A stretch of 46,289 nucleotides of DNA from Nitrospira sp. (GTDB taxonomy: Bacteria > Nitrospirota > Nitrospiria > Nitrospirales > Nitrospiraceae): assembly GCA_016788465.1 (NCBI GenBank), contig JAEURV010000068.1, positions 1 to 46,289 of the forward strand, given 5' to 3'. Shown in pieces: positions 3,769 to 36,230 of the stretch. The notes under the pieces were generated by a model. That model searched no databases. It had not been told where the DNA came from and worked only from the letters and a program-made list of their open reading frames with translations. How positions within the stretch are numbered: the stretch's first letter is position 1; each line of letters starts with the position of its first letter. A program made the translations under genes and the position numbers.

Positions 3769-4938
3769 TCAGTGGGTACGGACTGGACCCATTGACACTG
3801 CAATTGAAAGAGCGATCAGCGCGATGATGATCCACTCAAGCACCTCCATCCGCCTCGTTCCGGCTCGATCCGACATCTTGCCGTAGATGCTCTCCAACGT
3901 CTGGAGCTTGCGGAGGATACTAGCATCCCACTCCTCCAGGTGAAAACGTTGTGAGACGAGTCGATACACCCGCGCGAGATACTGATCACCCAACAACTTC
4001 AAGGTATTGGTGACGCGCTCGAAGATCAGCGCGCTATCGACCTGCAGCTGCGCGATATGAGTGACATCCTTTTCGTATGAGCCGGGCATGGACAGGAGAC
4101 GCGGCTTTCTGGACAAGGCTTCGTAGCCCTCATCCAACGCACGATCGAGCTGTTCATCCAGGATACGCATCTCCAGCAACTCGACGTTGGCAAATTCCAG
4201 TACGGCACGAACGTCATCCATTTCCTTGCCGAACAAGACGGCAGAATGCCAGTCGATGAAAGCGGCGTCGTCGAGACCGAACGAGATTCGGCACGACAAT
4301 GCGTCGGCCACTTCCTGCTCCGAGAACGGTGTCCGTTCAGCCCGCAGAATTTGAGCCAAGTCAGACTCGTGGCTTCTCCATAAGGGACCCCCCTCTCCCG
4401 GAATGGAGGACTCGATCGCGAACATCATGTAGTCCTCCACGTCCTCTGCAATGGCCGGACGTTCAATGGCTTGGCCCAGCGCTTGGACGAGCCGTTCCAC
4501 TCGGAGGCGTGATTCGGTCAGCAATCGTTCATTTTCATACAGAGACTCACTCAGGTCCAGCAGTTGTGTAAACGGGCCACTGATGGGGAAACGATACATA
4601 ATCGTCACGGCGCCGAAATCGTACACCATGACCTCCACGATAGGGCTTGCCTGATAGTAACCTATGCTCAAGACGCTGCCTTCCTGAACAAGGCGTAGCG
4701 GAGCCGGCCGATACTCGAAGTATTGAGGGGCCCTCGTCCTATGCCGAAGATGGCTGCGTTCGGTGCCGGCGAGGATTCGTTGTTCCGCCTCCGTCAGGTC
4801 GATGGAGAGACCAATATCATACGCGAAGAGAGCGAAGCAGGTTCCCTTCGTAAGGGTGACATGTTCCAGCATGGTCATTTCTTGCACGCTACATTCCTGG
4901 CCACTCATGGCGACAACACAGGCTTCCTTAGACGCCAT
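3769..4938 (-). CDS. DUF155/RMD1-like membrane-anchored protein
   Basis: 389 residues, function unknown. The middle has VMVYDFGAV (around residue 105), and residues ~240-275 contain LEFANVELLEMRILDEQLD, which resembles the conserved C-terminal block of the DUF155 (RMD1/Sif2) family. One hydrophobic helix near the C-terminus (WIIIALIALSIAVSM) should anchor it in the membrane with the bulk soluble, as in that family. The start lies 3 bp after the stop of the deoxyhypusine-synthase-like gene, so the two form a tight operon. A decayed paralogue of its N-terminal third lies at 7115-7522. Family assignment is from motif resemblance only. Confidence 0.7.
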   Translation of the reverse strand: MASKEACVVAMSGQECSVQEMTMLEHVTLTKGTCFALFAYDIGLSIDLTEAEQRILAGTERSHLRHRTRAPQYFEYRPAPLRLVQEGSVLSIGYYQASPIVEVMVYDFGAVTIMYRFPISGPFTQLLDLSESLYENERLLTESRLRVERLVQALGQAIERPAIAEDVEDYMMFAIESSIPGEGGPLWRSHESDLAQILRAERTPFSEQEVADALSCRISFGLDDAAFIDWHSAVLFGKEMDDVRAVLEFANVELLEMRILDEQLDRALDEGYEALSRKPRLLSMPGSYEKDVTHIAQLQVDSALIFERVTNTLKLLGDQYLARVYRLVSQRFHLEEWDASILRKLQTLESIYGKMSDRAGTRRMEVLEWIIIALIALSIAVSMGPVRTH

Positions 4939-4941
4939 AGT

Positions 4942-5919
4942 TTACCAACCAAGGACGTATGCGAACATCAATGGCGCCACGATCGTGGCGTCGGACTCGA
5001 TGATGAATTTCGGAGTATCCATACCGAGCTTTCCCCACGTGATCTTTTCATTCGGGACCGCTCCGGAATATGAGCCATAACTCGTTGTCGAATCGCCGAT
5101 CTGACAGAAATATCCCCAAAGCGGCACCTGCTCCCTTCGAAGATCCTGGCTCAGCATCGGTACGACACAGATAGGAAAATCACCGGCAATCCCGCCTCCA
5201 ATTTGAAAAAATCCGATCGAATTCTCCTCTGCTGTTTTCATATACCATTCGGCCAAATGCATCATATATTCGACACCGGATCGTACCGTGTGCACGTTCC
5301 GAATGGCTCCTGTGATGCAATGTGCCGCATACATATTACCCAATGTCGAATCTTCCCAACCCGGGACAAACAGCGGAAGATTCCGTTCTGCTGCTGCGCA
5401 CATCCAACTGTCTGCCGGATCAATCTGATAGTGCTCTTTCAGCCTGCCGTTGACCAAGAGCTTGTAGAGGAACTGATGCGGAAAGGCCCTGGCACCGGCG
5501 CTATCCGCTGCCGCCCATTCGGTTGCGACCGCCGCCTCAATGCGACGCATCGCTTCCGCTTCTGGAATGCAGGTATCGGTGACTCGATTTAGATGTCGAC
5601 GCAGGAGATTTTGCTCATCCTGGACCGTCAGTTCCCGATAGTGCGGGATCCGCTCGTAATGTTTCTGCGCCACGAGGTTGAACAAGTCCTCTTCCAGATT
5701 GGCGCCTGTGCAACAGATGGCATGTACCTTGTCACGTCGGATCATTTCAGCCAGCGATAGCCCCAGCTCCGCTGTGCTCATTGCGCCGGCCAACGTCACC
5801 AGCATGACACCCCCGCGATCCAGATGAGCTCTGTAGGCATGGGCCGCGTCTTTCAGCGCCGCCGCGTTGAAATGCCTGTAGTGGTGATCAATAAATTGCG
5901 AAATAGATGTCGGTTTCAT
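4942..5919 (-). CDS. Deoxyhypusine-synthase-like aminobutyltransferase
   Basis: 325 residues. Deoxyhypusine synthase family enzymes move an aminobutyl group from spermidine to an acceptor using NAD. The catalytic lysine region is conserved as NEKITWGK (lysine about residue 297), followed by the expected ESDATIVAPLMFAYVL end; GGGIAGDF and HCITGA also fit the family. Bacteria lack eIF5A, so the acceptor is probably not a hypusine protein; homospermidine or a related polyamine is the likely product (inference). The start is set by AGGAG at 5925-5929, five bases before ATG 5919; an upstream in-frame start at 5955 has no such site. First gene of an operon with the DUF155-like gene, divergent from the arginine decarboxylase. 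Confidence 0.85.
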   Translation of the reverse strand: MKPTSISQFIDHHYRHFNAAALKDAAHAYRAHLDRGGVMLVTLAGAMSTAELGLSLAEMIRRDKVHAICCTGANLEEDLFNLVAQKHYERIPHYRELTVQDEQNLLRRHLNRVTDTCIPEAEAMRRIEAAVATEWAAADSAGARAFPHQFLYKLLVNGRLKEHYQIDPADSWMCAAAERNLPLFVPGWEDSTLGNMYAAHCITGAIRNVHTVRSGVEYMMHLAEWYMKTAEENSIGFFQIGGGIAGDFPICVVPMLSQDLRREQVPLWGYFCQIGDSTTSYGSYSGAVPNEKITWGKLGMDTPKFIIESDATIVAPLMFAYVLGW

Positions 5920-6464
5920 ATCAGCTCCTGTCTTTATGATTTTGCCGTTCAGCACTGTTGCGGTCAGGCTTTCCTAAGGATGGCAAGACGGAATAGGAGC
6001 CCAGGTATCGCCAGAGCTTGTTCCGCCCATATCATCGTGCATCAATACTCTTTTAGCACGAGCTCATTGACGCATTCAGATCGCCCTGCGTGAAAACCGT
6101 TCTGACCGGGACGCAGAACTCCCATGCAGGCGGTACGCGCTACGGTACGTCACGACGGGAAGATCGTTTGAACCTGTATCGAGCCGGAACCTAGTCCGAA
6201 CAACCAGAAGCACATTGTTTAGGCAGATCTCGTTACAAATTCATTACAGAAGCGTAACCGAACAGTAAAAAGTTCTCGACTTCGTGCAGTAATCCGAAAA
6301 TTGAGCCCGAAAGATATTGTGAAACACTCGTCCGCCTTGCTACAACAAGCTCCCGACGGTGCCGCGGATGAGGTATGGTTGTTGGTCTGAGTCACTACTT
6401 CGAAAGCAATCACTCAACAGTCTCCGGAATAACTTGAACAGCCCATTGGCAGACGAAAGGAAAG
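5920..6464. other. Divergent intergenic region, 545 bp
   Basis: Separates the leftward deoxyhypusine-synthase-like gene from the rightward arginine decarboxylase. I see no coding sequence with a credible ribosome-binding site. The only structured element is the 11-bp periodic array at 6232-6270. Promoters for both genes must lie here. Confidence 0.6.
6232..6270 (-). promoter_or_regulatory. Pho-box-like array, four 11-bp repeats
   Basis: On the plus strand GTTACA (6232), ATTACA (6243), GTAACC (6254) and GTAAAA (6265) repeat at exactly 11-bp spacing. Read on the minus strand the first two units are TGTAAC and TGTAAT, the same units as upstream of pstS. The orientation points at the deoxyhypusine-synthase-like gene, but 310 bp separate them, much more than at pstS. 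Confidence 0.45.
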
Positions 6465-7037
6465 ATGATGGTACCTACGCAGATGTTTCTCACCAGAGGA
6501 GTTGGAGTCCACAAAGAAAAGCTGACATCTTTCGAAGAAGCGTTACGCAGCGCCGGTGTGGAATACTGCAACCTGGTGAGTGTCTCGTCGATCCTCCCAC
6601 CACACTGTAAAATCATTCCCAGAAAGCACGGAGAGAAGCTGCTGAAGCCAGGGGAAATTACGTTTTGCGTGATGGCCAGATCTGAAACGAATGAGCGGAA
6701 CCAATTAGTTTCAGCTTCTGTTGGCGTGGCGAAGCCCACCGATCACGGCACCTACGGCTATCTCTCAGAGCATCATGCTCACGGTGAGACGGATGAAGAG
6801 ACCGGTGAATATACGGAAGATCTCGCTGCACAGATGCTCGCCACGACATTAGGAGTGGAGTTTGATCCCAATGTCGCATGGAAAGAGCGCGAACAAGTCT
6901 TCAAGATGGGAGGAAAGATCGTCCAGACGCTGAATATTACCCAGTCCGCTGTGGGGAAAAAAGGCAAGTGGACGACGGTCATCGCCCTGGCAGTGTTTAT
7001 CCCGCCAGAAAATGTCGTCCCTCGTCCTCGCCGATAA
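6465..7037 (+). CDS. pdaD: Pyruvoyl-dependent arginine decarboxylase
   Basis: 190-residue proenzyme that decarboxylates arginine to agmatine, the entry to polyamine synthesis. It self-cleaves at a Ser-Ser pair, seen at S41-S42 in [10 protein letters not shown], which creates the pyruvoyl cofactor on the alpha chain. Length and the VSSIxPP motif match archaeal and bacterial PvlArgDC. AGGAAAG at 6458-6464 directly precedes two tandem ATGs; 6468 is equally possible. It is divergent from the deoxyhypusine-synthase-like gene, so together they could supply and use polyamines. No agmatinase or agmatine deiminase is in the window. Confidence 0.92.
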
Positions 7038-7114: not shown

Positions 7115-7522
7115 TCAACTGCGTGTCAAGAAGCGCTCCGGTGTTGGTCTGTCAATCGGGAAACGACGGGTGATGGCTCCAAAGTCGTAGACCATGACTT
7201 CCACGGTTGGACCGGCCTGATCTCGACTGAGCCCCACGATGTTGCCTTCCTGAACAAGCCGTGGTGAACCGAACCAACGCTCCAACGGCTGATGACATCC
7301 GGACTGATGGCGAAGACGCCTTCGTGCCGCTCCGGTGACAGTCCGTCCTTCCGACGTCGGTCGGGTTGACGAACCGTCCGATGTCGTAGGGAAACAGGGC
7401 TCAGCAGACCCCCTTGGGGCCAGTGACATGCTCAGGCAAATCTTTCCCTTGCACATCGACAATGCATTCGTTGGACTTCTCCCTCTCGGAGAAACATGCC
7501 CAATGGCCTGAGGCTTCTGCAT
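7115..7522 (-). pseudogene. Decayed N-terminal copy of the DUF155-like gene
   Basis: The open frame ends with PRLVQEGNIVGLSRDQAGPT then VEVMVYDFGAI, which aligns with LRLVQEGSVLSIGYYQASPI then VEVMVYDFGAV of the intact protein at 3769-4938. The earlier part matches in another frame: EHVTGPKGVC, then an in-frame TGA, then ALFPYDIG, against EHVTLTKGTCFALFAYDIG. A second frame change lies near the start codon. The ATG at 7522 still has AAGGAGG in front of it. Only ~120 of 389 codons remain, so the gene is truncated, frameshifted twice and carries a stop. Confidence 0.8.
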
Positions 7523-10507: not shown

Positions 10508-10855
10508 TCAATGTCCCTGGTGATTACGCTCCATACGTGCCAGACATGATACGCAAAAGAGCGCATCCGGTTGAACCGTCAACCGAGCATAAGGAATCGC
10601 CTTGCGACACTGCCGACAGCATCCATAGCTCTTGGTATTCGTCAATTATAGGGCACGCTTGATCCGGTTGAGCCTGGCGACCATTCTCGCCTTTACCTGT
10701 AGGGCTAGATCCTGCTCGAAATCGTTTGAGGCCTGGTCGGCAGGATCTGCATAACAGACTCGTTCGGACGGTGGAATAAGCGAGAAGTCCCACTCAGTCA
10801 ACAGTGAAATGCGTTGTCGGATGAGTTCCTCTCTTAAACGTAAACGCTTGGTCAT
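10508..10855 (-). pseudogene. DksA/TraR-type zinc-finger protein interrupted by in-frame TAA
   Basis: Reading from ATG 10855 (GGAG 8 bases upstream) gives MTKRLRLREELIRQRI through ARLNRIKRAL, then TAA at 10646-10648. The same frame then continues as SYGCCRQC, AIPYARLTVQPDALFCVSC and a stop at 10508. The second part is the C-terminal zinc finger of DksA/TraR family proteins (CRQC, then CVSC), which bind RNA polymerase. The parts join in one frame, so a single nonsense mutation separates them. The full product would be ~115 residues. Read-through is possible but unsupported; an assembly error is another explanation. Confidence 0.75.
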
Positions 10856-10980
10856 GTGGCTCACTCCCGTGAGCGCGGATGGTTCGCCGTTTGCGCTCAC
10901 TTGACCCTTATTTTGGTTGTGCAGTAGGGGCATCCCAATATCTCTTGATGCCAGTGATACAGCATGGGTGGCAACGTCTG

Positions 10981-11008
10981 GTTACAGAAGAATTACATGT
11001 ATGTAAAA
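10981..11008 (-). promoter_or_regulatory. Pho-box-like repeats between the DksA-like gene and acr3
   Basis: TTACA occurs at 10982 and 10993, exactly 11 bp apart, with a weak third unit GTAAAA at 11003. On the minus strand the units read TGTAAT and TGTAAC, pointing at the broken DksA-like gene 126 bp away. Only two good units, so low confidence. Confidence 0.3.
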
Positions 11009-11043
11009 AAGGTTGAAGAGGTCTCCCAGAGACAGGTTCTTGG

Positions 11044-12865: not shown

Positions 12866-13576
12866 TCAGCACGCCGGGGATTTGTCCAATAACTTGTACC
12901 CAAGTGTCTTGATCGAGACGATGGCGTCATTGAGCAGCGGCACCTTCACTTTCAACCGGCGGATATGGACGTCGACGGTTCGCGTCGTCCCATAGTAGTC
13001 ATATCCCCACACCTCATTGAGAAGCACCTCTCGCGTCATGACTCGCCCTGGATGACGCAACAGATATTCCAACAGTCCGAACTCCTTTGCCGTGAGCAAC
13101 ACTTCCGTCCCGTGTACCCTCACTTCGTGTCGAGTGAGATCAAGCGTGAGCGGGCCATAGGTTCCGGAGGTTGGCTTTTGATCGGTGCTCTGTTCCAACC
13201 GGCGGAAGAGTGATTTGATCCGTGCGACGAGGGTCTTCGGGCTGAACGGCTTCGTCACATAATCATCGGCGCCCAGCTCGAGCCCAACGATCGTATCAGA
13301 CTCTCCGGCTTTGGCCGTCAGCATGATGATCGGCAACATCGCCGTATTGGGGGCAGCACGCAGCCGTTTACACACCTCAAGACCATCTAGTTCAGGGAGC
13401 ATGAGATCGAGGACGACCAGATCTGGTTTGTCCTCTTTGACCTTCTTGATCGCCTCCACCCCATTCAGCGCCGTATTCGTTCGAAATCCTTCTTTCTCCA
13501 AGTAGTGCGTGACGAGCTGTGCAATCTCAGGCTCGTCTTCAACAACCAGGATTTTCTTGTTCGCGATGCTGCCCAT
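12866..13576 (-). CDS. phoB: PhoB-like response regulator (OmpR family)
   Basis: 236 residues from ATG 13576. An N-terminal receiver domain carries the acidic pair in VVEDEP and the phosphorylation site D57 in VVLDLMLPE; TAKAGE and YVTKPF follow. The C-terminal winged helix has GVxxLLEYLLRHPG-like and WGYDYYGTTRTVDVHIRRLK segments, typical of PhoB. It likely binds the 11-bp Pho boxes seen here. The frame runs to 13678, but the receiver fold starts near 13576 and no convincing ribosome-binding site decides the start. No PhoR kinase is adjacent. It is last in the leftward pst-pho set, converging on arsC. Confidence 0.88.
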   Translation of the reverse strand: MGSIANKKILVVEDEPEIAQLVTHYLEKEGFRTNTALNGVEAIKKVKEDKPDLVVLDLMLPELDGLEVCKRLRAAPNTAMLPIIMLTAKAGESDTIVGLELGADDYVTKPFSPKTLVARIKSLFRRLEQSTDQKPTSGTYGPLTLDLTRHEVRVHGTEVLLTAKEFGLLEYLLRHPGRVMTREVLLNEVWGYDYYGTTRTVDVHIRRLKVKVPLLNDAIVSIKTLGYKLLDKSPAC

Positions 13577-13719
13577 TGGATGATTCTGTAGTGGAACGAA
13601 GAACGGGTCAAACCGACAGAGTGTCTCGCGACCTATTCCGTATCCGTCAGGGAGGAATGCCATCGCGCATCGCTTCACAGGATGCTTTCGCGCTGTGGCC
13701 TGCGGCGATATCGATACGA

Positions 13720-16770: not shown

Positions 16771-19092
16771 CTAGAACTGACTATACTTCTCCCTAAGCCG
16801 CTGTCGAACCAGTTCCGCTATCGTGTTGAGTAGAAAGGTCGCTACGAAGAGGAGCAATCCCGCCAAAAAGAGCGTGCGATACAATGTCCCGCCATGGGGT
16901 GCTTCCGGGATTTCCACGGCGATATTGGCGGACAGCGTCCGGAAGCCGTTGAACAGGCTCCAGTCCATGATCGGTGTATTCCCCGTCGCCATCAGGACGA
17001 TCATGGTCTCTCCCACCGCACGACCGAGCCCGATCATCAAGGCGGAGAAGATGCCCGGACTGGCTGAGATCAGGACGAGATAGATCAGTGTTTGCCAGCG
17101 CGTCGCGCCGAGTGCCAAGGAACCGGCAATGAGGTTCTTGGGAACATTGGTCAAGGCTTCTTCTGAAATGCTGTAGATGATGGGAATGATGGCAAACCCC
17201 ATGGCGACGCCCACGACAATGGCATTGCGCTGATCATAATTCAGACCTAGGTGGGTCTGAAGCCAGGGCTTATAGTGACCATTGAATAGGAAGGATTCCC
17301 ACCAGCCATTCGTCGCCAGACAGCCCCAGACGACGGCGATAATGACCGGCATCATGAGAAATGCTTCGACACCAGGCCGGATTCGATGCCGCAGTGAAGC
17401 CGGCAACAAGAGAAAGAGTCCCGCAGATACGGCAATGGCAAAGGGAGTCACCAAGACCATTCCCGCCATCGCGGGAAAGTTTCGCTCGAGCATCGGGGCA
17501 AACCAGAGGCCCGCCAGGAAGCCGAGGACCACCGTCGGGAGCGCCGCCATGATCTCAATCGTCGGCTTAATCTTCGTCCGATAATCAGGATGCATGAACA
17601 TGGAGGTGTAGATCGCGGCTAAGACCGCCAAGGGAACCGCGAGGAGGACGGCATAAATGGTCCCTTTGATCGTCCCAAAGATCAGCGGCGTCAAACTAAA
17701 CTTGGCTTCGAAGTCGTCCGACCCGCTCGAGGACTGCCACACCAGCTCCGGTCGCTCATAGCCCTCGTACATCACTGGAGAAAACAAGGTCACCAGGGTA
17801 ATTTCTGGGTAGGGATTGGCAATCTGGTAATGGACCATACGATTCGTGTCGGTCACAACGACGACGCCATCCGCCTTCGGTGCAAAATAGGTGTTACGGA
17901 GCCCTCCCTGTTGCGGCGCAAGGGTGAGCAAGGTCTGCGCGGATGTCGAATGGTGCAGCCGGATTCCACCATCGGCATCCGTTGTAATGAACCCTTTATC
18001 ACGCTGTGAAATGGTGATGTCGGTCACAGTGCTCTGATGAGGAGCGAACCGATGGACGGCCGTCATTTTGGTCTGATTCGTTCCAGGATGCTCCCTCACC
18101 GGCATCCACACGGCCACCTGCCCAGCCGCATCACCGACGACAAGACTGCGATCTCCCATGAGGTAGGCCAGCGCGGTAATCGCCTGATCCGGTCCGGACG
18201 CCTGTGTCGTTTCCGCCAGAACAGGCTTGGCTGCATCCCGAAGATCGAAGTGGTAGACCTTGCCATCCGCCGTGCCGACAGCGAGAAGCTCTGCCCGACT
18301 TGCAAGCGTGAGCGCCGTCACCTGACCGGGAATGTTGGATGTCAGATCGACCTGCGTCGTGGAAGCGGAATTCGTTCCATCAGGGCGAGAGACGTTGCGG
18401 CTGGTGGTCAGCCAGAGATGCCGATCTTCCAAAAGAGCCGCAACCCGCGCTTCGGAATCCGTGCTCTGATAGGCGAGTTTGGTAATGGCTTGTGGAGTCG
18501 GCGCCGCCGCAACGGGAGTTCCCATCTTGACCGATGGAGCAATCGAACGTTCTTGGTCGTGAAAGTCCTGCGTGAATTCAATGGTAACAGGGACGATACG
18601 ACCGTCTCCCGTGCCGAGCGCGAGACTGTGTCCCTTCCCCAAGGCTCGTGCCAAGGCAGTAACCGTCCCATCCGACAACAAGCCATGCGATGGCACTTTG
18701 GATATGGCAGCCGCGCCTTCCCCTAGGAAAACAAACTCAAGTGTGTCGCCTCGCAAGACATAGGCGATCTCTTGATGTTCATCGATGCCGATGAGGGCTG
18801 CTGCCGTTGGACGCTCAAGTTGATGAAGGGTAATGGGCTCGCTCGAGGTGGCGCTGGGGGGAAGAAATAGCGGGATGACTTCCTTGACGAGAAAAACACA
18901 CATCCCGAGAATACAAAGGATAATGCTGATCCCGCCTGTCTTGATGATGAATCGAGTGATCCCATCGGTCAACGATCTGATTTGACGTCGAGTGAACAAC
19001 CCCTCCACAAGTGCCGAGGCCTGCAATGCACCTCGGCTTGGGGAAGGGTCTCCCTCAAACACCGGTTCCGGAGTGAGCGGTGGCACGTTCAT
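16771..19092 (-). CDS. pstC: Phosphate ABC transporter permease PstC with WD40-like periplasmic domain
   Basis: 773 residues, more than twice E. coli PstC. One helix (about 52-75) is followed by ~370 residues with repeated short beta patterns such as AVGTADGKVYHFDLRD and VTALTLASRAELL, read as a beta-propeller-like domain outside the membrane. The permease core begins near residue 465 (LIFGTIKGTIYAVLL) and includes SLALGATRWQTLIYLVLISA and GRAVGETMIVLMATGN. Similar enlarged PstC proteins occur in pseudomonads; the propeller's role is not known to me. Sits 114 bp after pstS and 79 bp before pstA. Confidence 0.93.
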   Translation of the reverse strand: MNVPPLTPEPVFEGDPSPSRGALQASALVEGLFTRRQIRSLTDGITRFIIKTGGISIILCILGMCVFLVKEVIPLFLPPSATSSEPITLHQLERPTAAALIGIDEHQEIAYVLRGDTLEFVFLGEGAAAISKVPSHGLLSDGTVTALARALGKGHSLALGTGDGRIVPVTIEFTQDFHDQERSIAPSVKMGTPVAAAPTPQAITKLAYQSTDSEARVAALLEDRHLWLTTSRNVSRPDGTNSASTTQVDLTSNIPGQVTALTLASRAELLAVGTADGKVYHFDLRDAAKPVLAETTQASGPDQAITALAYLMGDRSLVVGDAAGQVAVWMPVREHPGTNQTKMTAVHRFAPHQSTVTDITISQRDKGFITTDADGGIRLHHSTSAQTLLTLAPQQGGLRNTYFAPKADGVVVVTDTNRMVHYQIANPYPEITLVTLFSPVMYEGYERPELVWQSSSGSDDFEAKFSLTPLIFGTIKGTIYAVLLAVPLAVLAAIYTSMFMHPDYRTKIKPTIEIMAALPTVVLGFLAGLWFAPMLERNFPAMAGMVLVTPFAIAVSAGLFLLLPASLRHRIRPGVEAFLMMPVIIAVVWGCLATNGWWESFLFNGHYKPWLQTHLGLNYDQRNAIVVGVAMGFAIIPIIYSISEEALTNVPKNLIAGSLALGATRWQTLIYLVLISASPGIFSALMIGLGRAVGETMIVLMATGNTPIMDWSLFNGFRTLSANIAVEIPEAPHGGTLYRTLFLAGLLLFVATFLLNTIAELVRQRLREKYSQF

Positions 19093-20261: not shown

Positions 20262-20291
20262 CATTACACGAATGTTACAGCCGTGTTACAT
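20262..20291 (-). promoter_or_regulatory. Pho box of pstS
   Basis: On the minus strand TGTAACA, TGTAACA and TGTAATG follow one another at exact 11-bp spacing (plus-strand TTACA at 20264, 20275 and 20286). This is the PhoB direct-repeat layout, with TGTAAC in place of the E. coli TGTCAT. Its distance from pstS is suitable for activation. Confidence 0.75.
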
Positions 20292-21762: not shown

Positions 21763-21801
21763 GTTAAAATGATGCTACGGTGTTGTTACGTCCTTGTTAA
21801 A
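21763..21801 (-). promoter_or_regulatory. Pho box of the porin gene, four units
   Basis: Plus-strand GTTAAAA (21763), GCTACGG (21774), GTTACGT (21785) and GTTAAAT (21796) recur every 11 bp; on the minus strand they read as TTTAAC/CGTAAC/CGTAGC-type units. It lies 58-96 bp before the porin start, matching the pstS arrangement, and 22 bp before the divergent gene at 21823. Confidence 0.65.
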
Positions 21802-31453: not shown

Positions 31454-31640
31454 CTAGATCTGCGTGACCGCATCCGCGGCTCCTTCGAGCAACCTCGGCA
31501 TTTCCTTGACATAGATTTCCGTCGTTGCATGGTGCTGATGCCGCATCACTATCTGACCCACGTTTGACTCGCATAATTGAGGAGTGCGCACATCGTAGTC
31601 GATCGTCTTTGCCGGTGTCGTCAATAGCAGAACGTCTCAT
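31454..31640 (-). pseudogene. C-terminal remnant of a tyrosine recombinase
   Basis: A minus-strand frame without a start ends VGQIVMRHQHHATTEIYVKE, then MPRLLEGAADAVTQI and TAG at 31454. The ATTEIYV block with its tyrosine matches the C-terminal catalytic box of phage-type integrases (GH....TTxxYxH). Only ~60 codons remain, cut by the relaxase gene start. It is distinct from the intact integrase at 34951-36219 and suggests an earlier integration event at this point. Confidence 0.55.
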
Positions 31641-32620
31641 CGCTCACGATCTTTCCCTCGTTCCCTCTCAGTCTCCGGAGTACGAACAGGTGTCTTGAAA
31701 TAGCGCACGAGATCCACGGCGAGTTGTCGGTCCTCCCCTTGATCGGATTGGGCGAGCGTCTTCAGGACCTGTTGGTAGTGATGCATCACCTCGCGCTGCT
31801 TCCTCGGCAGGTGCGTGTGGCGTTGCTGACGATCAAGCACCTTTGCGTTGGTCGTGCGATCATGCAGATGCTGGACCTTCCACCGTTCATGTGCGGTGCG
31901 GTGAATCCGGCTCGTGGTCGTCGCCTCAATCCCATGCTCGCGTAAGGCCTCCGCAAACCCCTCCCGCCACCGTTGCAGATCAGCCTTTCTCGGATTCAAG
32001 CGACTCCCGTCGAGGCCCGCCGCTTTCACCGTCAGGTGGACATGTGGGTGCGGAGAGGGATGCGGATCTGGATCGGTCTCGAACGTGTGGAGGACCATCG
32101 CGTACTGAAAGCCGGAGAACTCCCGTGTCGCGAAGTCACGGGCCGCGCGTTGGACCGCTAGCGGATCGGTCCTGGTCGGCATGGAAAGGACGAGATGAAA
32201 GGCATCGCGCATGGTCGAATCCGCGGCTATCGGCATCCCGCCATCGCGCCATTCGGCTTTCAGATCCGCCACCGCGTCCTTCCCGAGAATCACCTGACCG
32301 TCCTGATCCTCGATCTCGAGTTGGCCATCACGCGAAATGTAGGTGAGATTATTAGAGATACCCTTCATCCCTTTCGGCGCCCTGACGAGTTTCACCACGA
32401 CTTGGGGCGCACGGCGGACCATGGCCTGTAACTTCTGCCGCACATAGGTCGCACGAGCCTGTGGCGTGTTGAGCCCTCTGCCGGTCTTCACAGGCTTGGC
32501 TGAACCAAGAGGACTGCGCGTGCTGCGACGTGGCCGTGGGAGGGTCTCTGTTGAGACATTAAAGAGCCGACTCCCCCACTCATCCAATGTCTGGTCAATC
32601 TGGCTGCCTGTTGAGCTCAT
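31637..32620 (-). CDS. Relaxase, MobA/VirD2-like (MOBP type)
   Basis: 327 residues. Nicks DNA at oriT and starts strand transfer. The likely catalytic tyrosine is in NLTYISRDG (about residue 93). The metal-binding third motif is LHTFETDPDPHP then PHPHVHLTVK. The C-terminal half is basic and helical. It is shorter than plasmid relaxases such as TraI of RP4 but keeps the nuclease domain. Its ATG overlaps the mobC stop by 4 bp. Confidence 0.87.
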   Translation of the reverse strand: MSSTGSQIDQTLDEWGSRLFNVSTETLPRPRRSTRSPLGSAKPVKTGRGLNTPQARATYVRQKLQAMVRRAPQVVVKLVRAPKGMKGISNNLTYISRDGQLEIEDQDGQVILGKDAVADLKAEWRDGGMPIAADSTMRDAFHLVLSMPTRTDPLAVQRAARDFATREFSGFQYAMVLHTFETDPDPHPSPHPHVHLTVKAAGLDGSRLNPRKADLQRWREGFAEALREHGIEATTTSRIHRTAHERWKVQHLHDRTTNAKVLDRQQRHTHLPRKQREVMHHYQQVLKTLAQSDQGEDRQLAVDLVRYFKTPVRTPETERERGKDRER

Positions 32621-33168
32621 TGGATGTGCCAGCGCTCCACGGTCCCGCGTAAGACATCGGACACCTTCTTGGTATGGGCCTGGATCACGCGGGAGAGTTC
32701 GGTGATGACCTCGACCCGAAAGGCGCTCCGGTTCTGAGGCGCGGTATTCAAGACTTTCGCAATCTGGTTCAGGTTCCTCCCCAAGGCCAGCAGCTGTTGA
32801 TTCGACCGGGCCAAGGTCTCCAATTCCGGCTGTCCGACCTGCGGCTGTCCGGTCAACTTAGTGCGGATCATCGCCACCAGCCATTTGGTCGGCACATAGC
32901 CTTCGTGACCAGCCATTTTCTTCAGGGCGGCGAGCTCTGAGGGAGTCAGGTTCAGTTCGATGCGAGTGGTCGCTCGTTCTCGCTTTGGCGTGACACGCAG
33001 CCGAGGTGCAGGAGCCCGCGTGGCGCTCCGGTCCATGGCCTGTCGAATGGCGTTCCGGAGGGCATGGCTCGGCGTGATGCCGTGGGCCTGACACCAGGCC
33101 TGCCAGGGCGCTTTCAGTTCACCCAGATCCACCGTGACCGTCGTCGTCCGTTTGACCGTCTGCCCCAT
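32617..33168 (-). CDS. MobC-like relaxosome accessory protein
   Basis: 183 residues. Residues ~60-183 resemble MobC/TraJ-like relaxosome proteins: ATTRIELNLTPSELAALKKM is a ribbon-helix-helix-like DNA-binding segment and LLALGRNLNQIAKVLN is the conserved MobC box. The N-terminal part (TVTVDLGELKAPWQAWCQA) is less clear. It would help the relaxase melt oriT. The end overlaps the relaxase start by 4 bp. The putative oriT lies about 140 bp upstream of the start. Confidence 0.8.
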   Translation of the reverse strand: MGQTVKRTTTVTVDLGELKAPWQAWCQAHGITPSHALRNAIRQAMDRSATRAPAPRLRVTPKRERATTRIELNLTPSELAALKKMAGHEGYVPTKWLVAMIRTKLTGQPQVGQPELETLARSNQQLLALGRNLNQIAKVLNTAPQNRSAFRVEVITELSRVIQAHTKKVSDVLRGTVERWHIQ

Positions 33169-33307
33169 CAGCTCACCTGCACCAAGCCCAGTTGCAACAC
33201 CCCGTGCCCCTCACCGATCGGTGCCTGATTCCGGTCGTACGAGGGTCAAAGAACAGGCGCACAAGAATACGATAAACCCATAATGTAAGACAACTACGGG
33301 CAACAGC

Positions 33308-33320
33308 CATATCCTGCAAC
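33308..33320 (+). other. Candidate oriT nic site
   Basis: The sequence CATATCCTGCAAC contains YATCCTG|C, the nick consensus of MOBP relaxases such as those of RP4 and R64. Cleavage would fall between 33316 and 33317. It lies upstream of mobC and the MOBP-type relaxase, the usual place for oriT. Confidence 0.55.
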
Positions 33321-33354
33321 CTCTTAAAAAATGATAATAATAGAGGAAAGAAGA

Positions 33355-33380
33355 AAGAGATTTAGGCCCCCCAATCTCTT
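33355..33380. repeat. 8-bp inverted repeat near oriT
   Basis: AAGAGATT (33355-33362) and AATCTCTT (33373-33380) pair perfectly across 10 bases of TAGGCCCCCC. It could be a relaxosome-binding repeat or a terminator; no T-run follows. Confidence 0.5.
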
Positions 33381-33519
33381 AAAATCCGTCAAATATGTGC
33401 AAAACGGAGCACTAACGGGATCGTTAAAGAACTGACTCGGCGGGTCCAGCGCGCAACGGAGGAAGAATTGATCTTTAGAACGGAGACGTGTAGGCTGATG
33501 CCTAGTTGGAGCGACGCAA

Positions 33520-33726
33520 ATGACGACGGCGTATGAACAGACGATTCTTCAGAAACTTCGGCATCTTCCTCCCGAACGTTTAGCCGAAGTGGAGGACTTT
33601 GTGGATTTTCTCGCCCACCGTCAAGCCGAAGAGCGCGCTCTGACTCAGGCCGCCGGCCACCTCGCCAGCGCCGCCTTTGCGCAGGTCTGGGACAACCCCG
33701 CTGACGCCGATTATGACCGGTTATGA
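33520..33726 (+). CDS. Antitoxin, DUF2281-like
   Basis: 68 residues. ILQKLRHLPPERLAEVEDFV then DFLAHRQAEE is the typical N-terminal helix pair of DUF2281/VapB-type antitoxins, and the C-terminus (AFAQVWDNPADADYDRL) is the toxin-binding tail. GGAG at 33509-33512 precedes the ATG by 7 bases. It overlaps the toxin gene by 14 bp, the usual antitoxin-first arrangement. It should stabilise the element. Confidence 0.83.
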   Translation: MTTAYEQTILQKLRHLPPERLAEVEDFVDFLAHRQAEERALTQAAGHLASAAFAQVWDNPADADYDRL

Positions 33727-34051
33727 CTTCGGGGATGTGGTCTTAGTCCCCTTTCCCTTCACGGATCAATCCGCCGTCAAACGCCGCCCCGCCGTCGTGG
33801 TTAGCAGCTCGGCCTATCATCAGGCCCGCCCCGATCTCCTGATCATGGCGATTACCAGTCGACAACCCTCCTCCCTCTCCGTGGGTGAGATGCAGGTGCA
33901 GGATTGGCAGGGGGCGGGATTGCTCAAGCCGTCTGTGCTCAAACCCATCCTCACCACCATCGACCCAGCCCTTGTCCTCAAGAAACTGGGCCGACTCACC
34001 ACGACGGATCAAAGTGCGCTTCGTCAGGCCCTCCGGACCATGCTCGGGTAA
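33713..34051 (+). CDS. MazF/PemK-like toxin endoribonuclease
   Basis: 112 residues from ATG 33713. MTGYDFGDVVLVPFPFTDQS and KRRPAVVVSSSAYH are the PemK/MazF opening, including the RPAVV strand; SVLKPILTTIDPALVLKKLG matches the conserved end. Such toxins cut mRNA or tRNA when free of antitoxin. The frame extends upstream to 33677 inside the antitoxin gene, but family alignment and overlap favour 33713. Confidence 0.87.
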   Translation: MTGYDFGDVVLVPFPFTDQSAVKRRPAVVVSSSAYHQARPDLLIMAITSRQPSSLSVGEMQVQDWQGAGLLKPSVLKPILTTIDPALVLKKLGRLTTTDQSALRQALRTMLG

Positions 34052-34657
34052 GTCGTCCAGTTCCTCGTTCTGGTAACACCTGGCGCTTCTGTACAAGATT
34101 AGGTGAACACTCCATCAATCCTTTTCTTTCTGCTCCTCGATCCTCACTGAAGAGCCGAACCGATCATGAACGGCCACAGGCACCGGACTCACACACCAGC
34201 CTCTTCTCAACATCGCGTTGCGCCCCTCACCCAAGCGGGGGCGCAACAGACGTGCCGAATCTGTGGCTACGCACGACTGCATCCGTGACACCGCCTCGGT
34301 GGCGCGGTTGCCACGAGCGTGCCACACCCCTTGATGGGCGACAACTATTGTCGCCGCACGGTCGAGTCGCGTTACGCGACACAACGGTGCCGCAGTCCAC
34401 GTAGCACGGCGTCTCCGGACGCGGTGCTTCAGATGCGTGGCTGCCGAATCCCCTCCCCCGGCCTCCCCTACTTTTTCGGTATGGTCATAAATTCTGAACC
34501 CTCTCATAAGTGCCACCATGCCACGCACTTTCTGCGTCTCCTGTCTTCGGCAAAACGCATGACGACACAGAAGCGCTCATGTGGCACGAGGAACGCGGCA
34601 GACCATGCACCACGCACCGGATGCAAGGCGATTCAAAGATCTCGACAAGGGGCTGTG
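34052..34657. other. Intergenic region before the excisionase gene, 606 bp
   Basis: No recognisable gene; long frames on both strands are of poor composition. It contains the hairpin cluster at 34299-34380 and should carry the promoter of the excisionase and integrase genes. Confidence 0.55.
34299..34380. repeat. Cluster of three hairpins
   Basis: GTGGC-6-GCCAC (34299-34314), GGCGACAA-CTA-TTGTCGCC (34337-34355) and GTCGCG-TTA-CGCGAC (34366-34380) follow within 82 bp. The second has a perfect 8-bp stem. Possible protein-binding or single-strand origin structures. Confidence 0.55.
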
Positions 34658-34924
34658 ATGCTGAGTGATCTCTTCGAACCGGGGTATTTCGATCTCAAGG
34701 CACTGGCGGCCTACTCGTCCTGCTCGGTTCGATGGCTGCGGGATCGCCTCGTGGATCGCCTCCATCCCCTGCCGCACTACCGGATCGAGGGAAAGATTCT
34801 GGTGAAGCGAGAGGAGTTCGACCGCTGGCTGTCGAGCTCGCACGTCGTTAATTCGGCTGATGGACTGAGCGATATCGTTGATTCTGTGGTCGCTCACATG
34901 CGGCCCTCGAAGCGGAGCGCTTGA
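34658..34924 (+). CDS. Excisionase-like small helix-turn-helix protein
   Basis: 88 residues from ATG 34658, with AAGGGG about 5 bases upstream. YFDLKALAAYSSCSVRWLRD then RIEGKILVKREEFDRWL is the helix-turn-helix plus wing of MerR-like excisionase (HTH_17) proteins. It sits just before the integrase and overlaps the integrase frame start, so it may direct excision. The longer frame from 34319 is non-coding in composition. Confidence 0.72.
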   Translation: MLSDLFEPGYFDLKALAAYSSCSVRWLRDRLVDRLHPLPHYRIEGKILVKREEFDRWLSSSHVVNSADGLSDIVDSVVAHMRPSKRSA

Positions 34925-34950
34925 CACAGGGAAAGAGAGTCAAACACACT

Positions 34951-36230
<1,280 letters not shown>

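Follow-up and report, generated by a model that had tools for sequence, protein, structure and literature searches.

In Proteobacteria, the Pho box is described as two CTGTCAT repeats separated by a 4-nt spacer (PMC3131613). On the polyamine side, Thermus thermophilus has a caldomycin (agmatine-coupling) pathway with the enzyme CdmS (PMC10981699), and engineered Citrobacter forms polyamine-polyphosphate granules (PMC12874136). In the cyanobacterium Microcystis, transcripts of arginine decarboxylase and agmatinase are lower in low phosphate (PMC3720943), a decrease that counts against a general rule. A literature search, mostly at the level of titles, returned none on PhoB control of arginine decarboxylase or of a gene of the deoxyhypusine synthase family.

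The window analysed here, a stretch of 46,289 nucleotides, is one contig (C59, 46 kb) of a 3.72-Mb Nitrospira genome and carries a phosphate island (Table 1). The island comprises ppk1, a weakly CorA-like protein (its match is below Pfam's cut-off), an unknown protein of 389 aa, a deoxyhypusine-synthase-like gene (DHS-like), a pyruvoyl-dependent arginine decarboxylase (ADC), PhoX and a small unknown, as well as an SBF transporter, a PhoB-like regulator, PhoU, an ABC ATPase, two permease genes, a PstS-type binding protein and an OprP-like porin. The PhoB-like protein has TIGR02154 (PhoB) as its best NCBIfam match, with 240.9 bits and thus below the cut-off of 296.2, and sits within the phosphate island; a second regulator in the genome is 74% identical to it. 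Five islands do not contain the DHS-like/ADC pair (L243, L244, L255, L258, L259), and there PhoX comes next, within ~470 bp, after ppk1 alone or after ppk1 and the CorA-like gene. One of the two phosphate-type permeases (16771–19092) has beta-propeller (WD40-like) matches N-terminal to its permease domain, the best covering residues 247–424. A relaxase and a phage-type integrase gene lie close together at 31637–36219, a possible mobile element, and a short frame on the minus strand (7115–7522) resembles part of the 389-aa protein (40–47% over ~70–90 residues) and is perhaps a remnant.

Table 1. Features of the phosphate island and their positions in the window
Feature	Position	Strand	Basis or remark
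389-aa protein	3769–4938	-	3 bp behind DHS-like gene
DHS-like gene (Pfam DS)	4942–5919	-	
Candidate -10, TAAACA	6216–6221	-	7 nt past fourth 11-mer; by eye; weak
Four-unit Pho-box array, 11-bp phase	6232–6270	-	direct reading, matrix, conservation
ADC promoter block GATATTGTGAA...TTGCTACAAC	6313–6346	+	also at ADC copies outside the island
Pyruvoyl-dependent arginine decarboxylase, extra copy within Pho island	6465–7037	+	
PhoB-like response regulator, presumed binder	12866–13678	-	
pstS Pho box, yardstick	20263–20290	-	matrix
Array before OprP-like porin gene	21763–21801	- (as its gene)	matrix

The initial annotation had claimed four units at 11-bp spacing between the DHS-like and ADC genes, two of them shared with pstS, and direct reading bears this out. 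On the plus strand the units GTTACA (6232), ATTACA (6243), GTAACC (6254) and GTAAAA (6265) follow each other at 11 bp, and GTTACA and ATTACA are also units of the pstS array. The strong units are oriented to the DHS-like gene (TCTGTAATGAATTTGTAACGAG on the minus strand, from 6250 downward). In order to avoid circularity, a scoring matrix was built only from the pstS arrays of other genomes (11 columns, 87 pstS units, 29 other Nitrospira genomes, with the window's own pstS copy excluded). The pstS loci were the best 30 of 69 genomes with a match, so that the matrix is biased to close relatives; three units at 11 bp are present in all 30. By this matrix, only the two array units nearest the DHS-like gene exceed 3 bits, both on the minus strand, while the other two are degenerate. 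When the window is ranked by triple score, pstS (37.9 bits) is followed by the array under study (15.3), an array at 11010 (13.0) and that of the porin gene (10.6), and the best position outside these four reaches -2.2 bits.

The array has the direct repeat at 11-bp spacing of a Pho box, and its unit is that of the lineage's own pstS box, as judged by a matrix made without this genome. Like the Nitrospira pstS box, it has the TGTAAC unit, the 11-bp phase, several units and the orientation of the gene. It differs from that box, in which units 1–3 are strong, in that its strong units are the third and fourth (the first two, TTTTAC and GGTTAC, being degenerate), and also in its longer leader and its position between divergent genes. 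With the proteobacterial box (PMC3131613) it shares a direct repeat of 7+4 = 11 bp and its predicted role as target of a PhoB-type regulator, but the unit here is TGTAACA, and CTGTCATN4CTGTCAT has no match in the array within 3 mismatches. We take the E. coli-type CTGTCAT unit, which the array lacks, as a lineage trait and not as defining a Pho box.

A chance match within the intergenic stretch is highly improbable. It might be argued from the E. coli-type consensus, which at up to 3 mismatches has 7 matches in the window versus 4 expected and none at the array, an uninformative comparison, and from the pattern GTTACA-N5-RTTACA with one mismatch, which alone is not enriched in the genome because a backwards-pattern control gives 15 sites versus 9 (4 of these on this contig). 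Against chance, the triple score was reached by none of 3000 sequences made by first-order Markov randomisation from the intergenic region (and the best pair score by 4 of 3000), and the array is conserved in all nine DHS-like/ADC loci described below. The minimum score over these nine arrays is 9.8 bits, and no cluster attains it in 75 ADC neighbourhoods that lie outside Pho islands (917,703 bases), which were drawn from the best 80 of 248 relatives and contain a single cluster of at least 5 bits. In 18 Pho-island pieces (298,129 bases) there are 31 clusters at the higher and 39 at the lower threshold. The exact pattern occurs three times in the 3.72-Mb genome, always on the 46-kb contig (6232, 10981, and 20274 at pstS). 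On sequence grounds, the array is thus confirmed as real, of Pho-box type and of the pstS kind. The possibility of a leader RNA element was discarded, as 5800–6600 has no Rfam match (E up to 1) and conservation in the leader is low.

Of 79 genomes of the genus, 26 carry the DHS-like gene, with 28 copies at E up to 1e-60, and the array is present in all nine loci where this gene faces an ADC start (L001–L005, which are the same places as L093, L092, L091, L115 and L095 with the same arrays, were counted once). It is absent from the 19 other copies, with a best score of -10.9; these include L102 and L117, which show just 154 and 261 bp upstream, and also L098, although transposase-like frames lie upstream there. 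Among the nine relatives, 19 of the 39 array columns are invariant, mostly in the unit cores, compared with 27 of 286 in the DHS-side leader and 24 of 46 in the ADC promoter block. When 507 conservation windows are ordered by their mean, the array comes 31st and the top eight are on the ADC side; the array is therefore one of two conserved elements and not the sole one. In a tree of DHS-like proteins, seven island rows form one group with L098 (support 100), a locus where both array and ADC are absent and where upstream homology to island DNA ends after a few dozen bases, behind the transposase-like frames. The reading frames at 374–1326 of L098, ~200 bp upstream of the island-clade DHS-like gene, are what we take to be transposase-like, and the arrangement may be a contig misassembly.

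As to the gene that the array serves, the triple score is higher on the DHS-like strand in all nine loci (9.8 to 21.4 bits), where the distance from the DHS-like ATG to the array is 165 to 395 bp. On the ADC strand it is negative in seven of them and 5.4 and 7.0 in the other two. In G036 the array is kept (16.2 bits) though the ADC match covers residues 1–52 only, with PhoX beginning 260 bp on; in G035 it is intact (21.4 bits) though the DHS-like frame is broken. In the fetched islands, where clusters were assigned to genes by eye, arrays at pstS (4), at the porin gene (2) and at ppk1 (in 8 of the 11 pieces that include it) have their highest score on the same strand as the gene, and five clusters have no assigned gene (L244 3140, L249 5767, L254 10295, L257 17319, L259 13771).

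The candidate -10 TAAACA agrees with TATAAT at 3 of 6 positions, and AACAAT two bases further at 4 of 6; at the offset matching TAAACA, pstS has, by eye, TAGAGT or TATTGT. Over the nine loci, matches to TATAAT peak at offsets 6–8 (36/54; another window, 31), and individual loci have their best hexamer anywhere from offset 5 to offset 9, the hexamers being weak. A TA-rich hexamer near this pstS offset as the -10 of the DHS-like gene is therefore suggestive only. A generic sigma-70 scan gave one match (6008–6035, plus strand), which is in neither proposed promoter.

The ADC exceeds the cut-offs of Pfam PF01862 (202.4 vs 22.7 bits) and TIGR00286 (121.7 vs 106.95 bits) and is below that of the non-defining NCBI equivalog NF009064 (186.4 vs 207 bits), as is the ordinary copy of L053 (185.9). 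Its nearest named relatives are Nitrospira MAGs (among the best 80 of 248 relatives), viral contigs gave no relative of it, and the genome holds a second ADC. The promoter block before the island copy has, by eye, a -35-like TTGTGA (6317–6322) and a -10-like TACAAC (6341–6346). The block GATATTGNGAA...TTGNTACAA precedes 62 of the 75 ADC copies located outside Pho islands, as well as the genome's own second ADC, and no Pho triple above 0.1 bits was found in the 300 bp before the copies outside islands. In its strict form the block is seen in 3 of 6 island rows, while its TGCTACAA part lies 118–125 bp before the ADC in all nine island loci. As the block occurs both before ADC copies outside the islands and at the island loci, the promoter of the extra ADC appears to be inherited. 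In a quick tree (84 rows, midpoint root, five duplicate rows excluded), the island ADCs are one side of a branch with SH-aLRT 99 and are nested in a group of 20 rows to which the second ADC of the genome also belongs (support 98), a topology consistent with one duplication.

These data bear on the alternative of a back-to-back Pho box common to both genes and activating each of them, with the outer units (GTAACC, AGTAAAA) facing the ADC, which we consider unlikely. On the plus strand the outer units read CGTAACC-N4-AGTAAAA, with GTAAAA invariant in the nine loci; two loci have the positive ADC-strand triples given above, and the array is 65–66 bp from TGCTACAA in six of the nine. This spacing is, however, 203–206 bp in the remaining three, the block occurs elsewhere without any array, the ADC-strand score is negative in most loci with no plus-strand unit above 3 bits in the window, and G036 keeps its array beside a truncated ADC. 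The proposal of Pho control at the polyamine genes beside ppk1 is thus supported in part, by a conserved array of the pstS kind in an island with ppk1, phoX, a PhoB-like regulator and pst genes. Its extension to both genes is not supported, as the array reads to the DHS-like gene throughout and the ADC has a separate promoter block at varying distance. Most likely, PhoB would activate the DHS-like gene when phosphate runs short, whereas nothing here supports a direct control of the ADC.

Regarding the DHS-like gene itself, the ATG at 5919 was preferred as start over the GTG at 5955 because the alignments of most relatives begin at residue 10–13. The protein passes the Pfam DS cut-off (136.2 vs 27 bits), and an alignment to 8qzw shows that the Lys of the WGK motif (deoxyhypusine synthase fold) is present. 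Seven NCBI equivalog families (deoxyhypusine, homospermidine and caldomycin synthase) were matched and none was passed, the best with 114 of 450 bits, and for this reason the gene is named DHS-like only. To speak of polyamine synthesis, as the initial annotation did, overstates the evidence, given a DHS-like protein below every NCBI functional-family cut-off and a second ADC in the genome. The structure predicted for the 389-aa protein has a mean pLDDT of 38 and the model was set aside. Its gene lies at most 10 bp from the DHS-like gene in 3 of 8 loci showing both, and co-transcription is likely only there, because the gap elsewhere is roughly 250–550 bp and an operon is doubtful.

Compared with the caldomycin route of Thermus (PMC10981699), the island similarly has a DHS homologue with the catalytic Lys next to a source of agmatine. 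The make-up of the ordinary locus of Nitrospira moscoviensis L053, with another DHS-family gene, an ADC and an agmatinase, is also like that agmatine-coupling route. As differences, the island protein reaches 98 of the 500 bits required by NCBI's bis(guanidino)-aza-nonane synthase family, and a Pfam scan of 28 window proteins showed no ureohydrolase.

Further arrays were seen in the window and in relatives. The second array of this type in the window (10981–11010, minus strand) lies between a DksA-like frame (10646–10933, below Pfam's cut-off) and the SBF gene, and is absent beside SBF in all seven other island pieces with this gene. Within 500 bp of phoX and phoB of the window there is no such array. 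Across the loci compared, 13–14 of 18 matches are attained by 6 of 30 phoX and 1 of 30 phoB upstream regions, five phoX rows beginning inside the gene so that their "upstream" is not promoter. The eight arrays reading to ppk1 are at L244 5066, L246 2152, L249 1818, L250 2477, L252 12394, L255 1183, L257 16176 and L259 11841; there is none in L243 and L245, nor in L258, which shows only ~230 bp upstream, and the window begins at ppk1, with the upstream region of this gene outside it. Extra arrays directly behind the ADC, reading to phoX, are found at L252 4353 (15.1 bits) and L254 14883 (13.5 bits). Arrays reading to the PhoB-like gene (5.0 to 12.1 bits) occur in relatives at L244 14429, L253 3772, L255 10344, L256 2719 and L259 2956, and there is none in the window.

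We favour a process, to which we assign a probability of roughly 0.7 from sequence comparison, where the array is a Nitrospira-type Pho box through which the PhoB-like regulator activates the DHS-like gene when phosphate is short, the ADC being largely independent by virtue of its own promoter. Upon phosphate shortage, the phosphorylated PhoB-like regulator from the same island would bind the 11-bp repeats and recruit RNA polymerase to the weak -10 near 6216–6221, from where a transcript would run leftward across the DHS-like gene and probably, in this genome, continue through the 389-aa gene. The divergent extra ADC would have come with its own promoter block, be expressed largely independently of the array, and supply agmatine. 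That PhoB instead represses or only fine-tunes the DHS-like gene, or that another OmpR-type regulator binds the array, is doubtful. The direction of an effect is not readable from sequence, the close second regulator would be at hand, and the drop of the Microcystis transcripts (PMC3720943) points the same way; on the other side, the array has the unit and phase of the pstS array.

As a tentative and still rather speculative extension, one Nitrospira lineage may have a phosphate-starvation polyamine module in its Pho island, in which a Pho-controlled DHS-like enzyme would couple agmatine from the extra ADC into a long (guanidino)polyamine. This product would neutralise, as counter-ion, the polyphosphate made by the adjacent ppk1, a gene with its own Pho array in relatives. 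Our data add a gene for a polyamine-type enzyme to the predicted Pho regulon of Nitrospira and provide a model of the Nitrospira Pho box with which regulons can be predicted. Should the product bind polyphosphate, phosphate starvation, polyphosphate and polyamines would be tied together by transcription.
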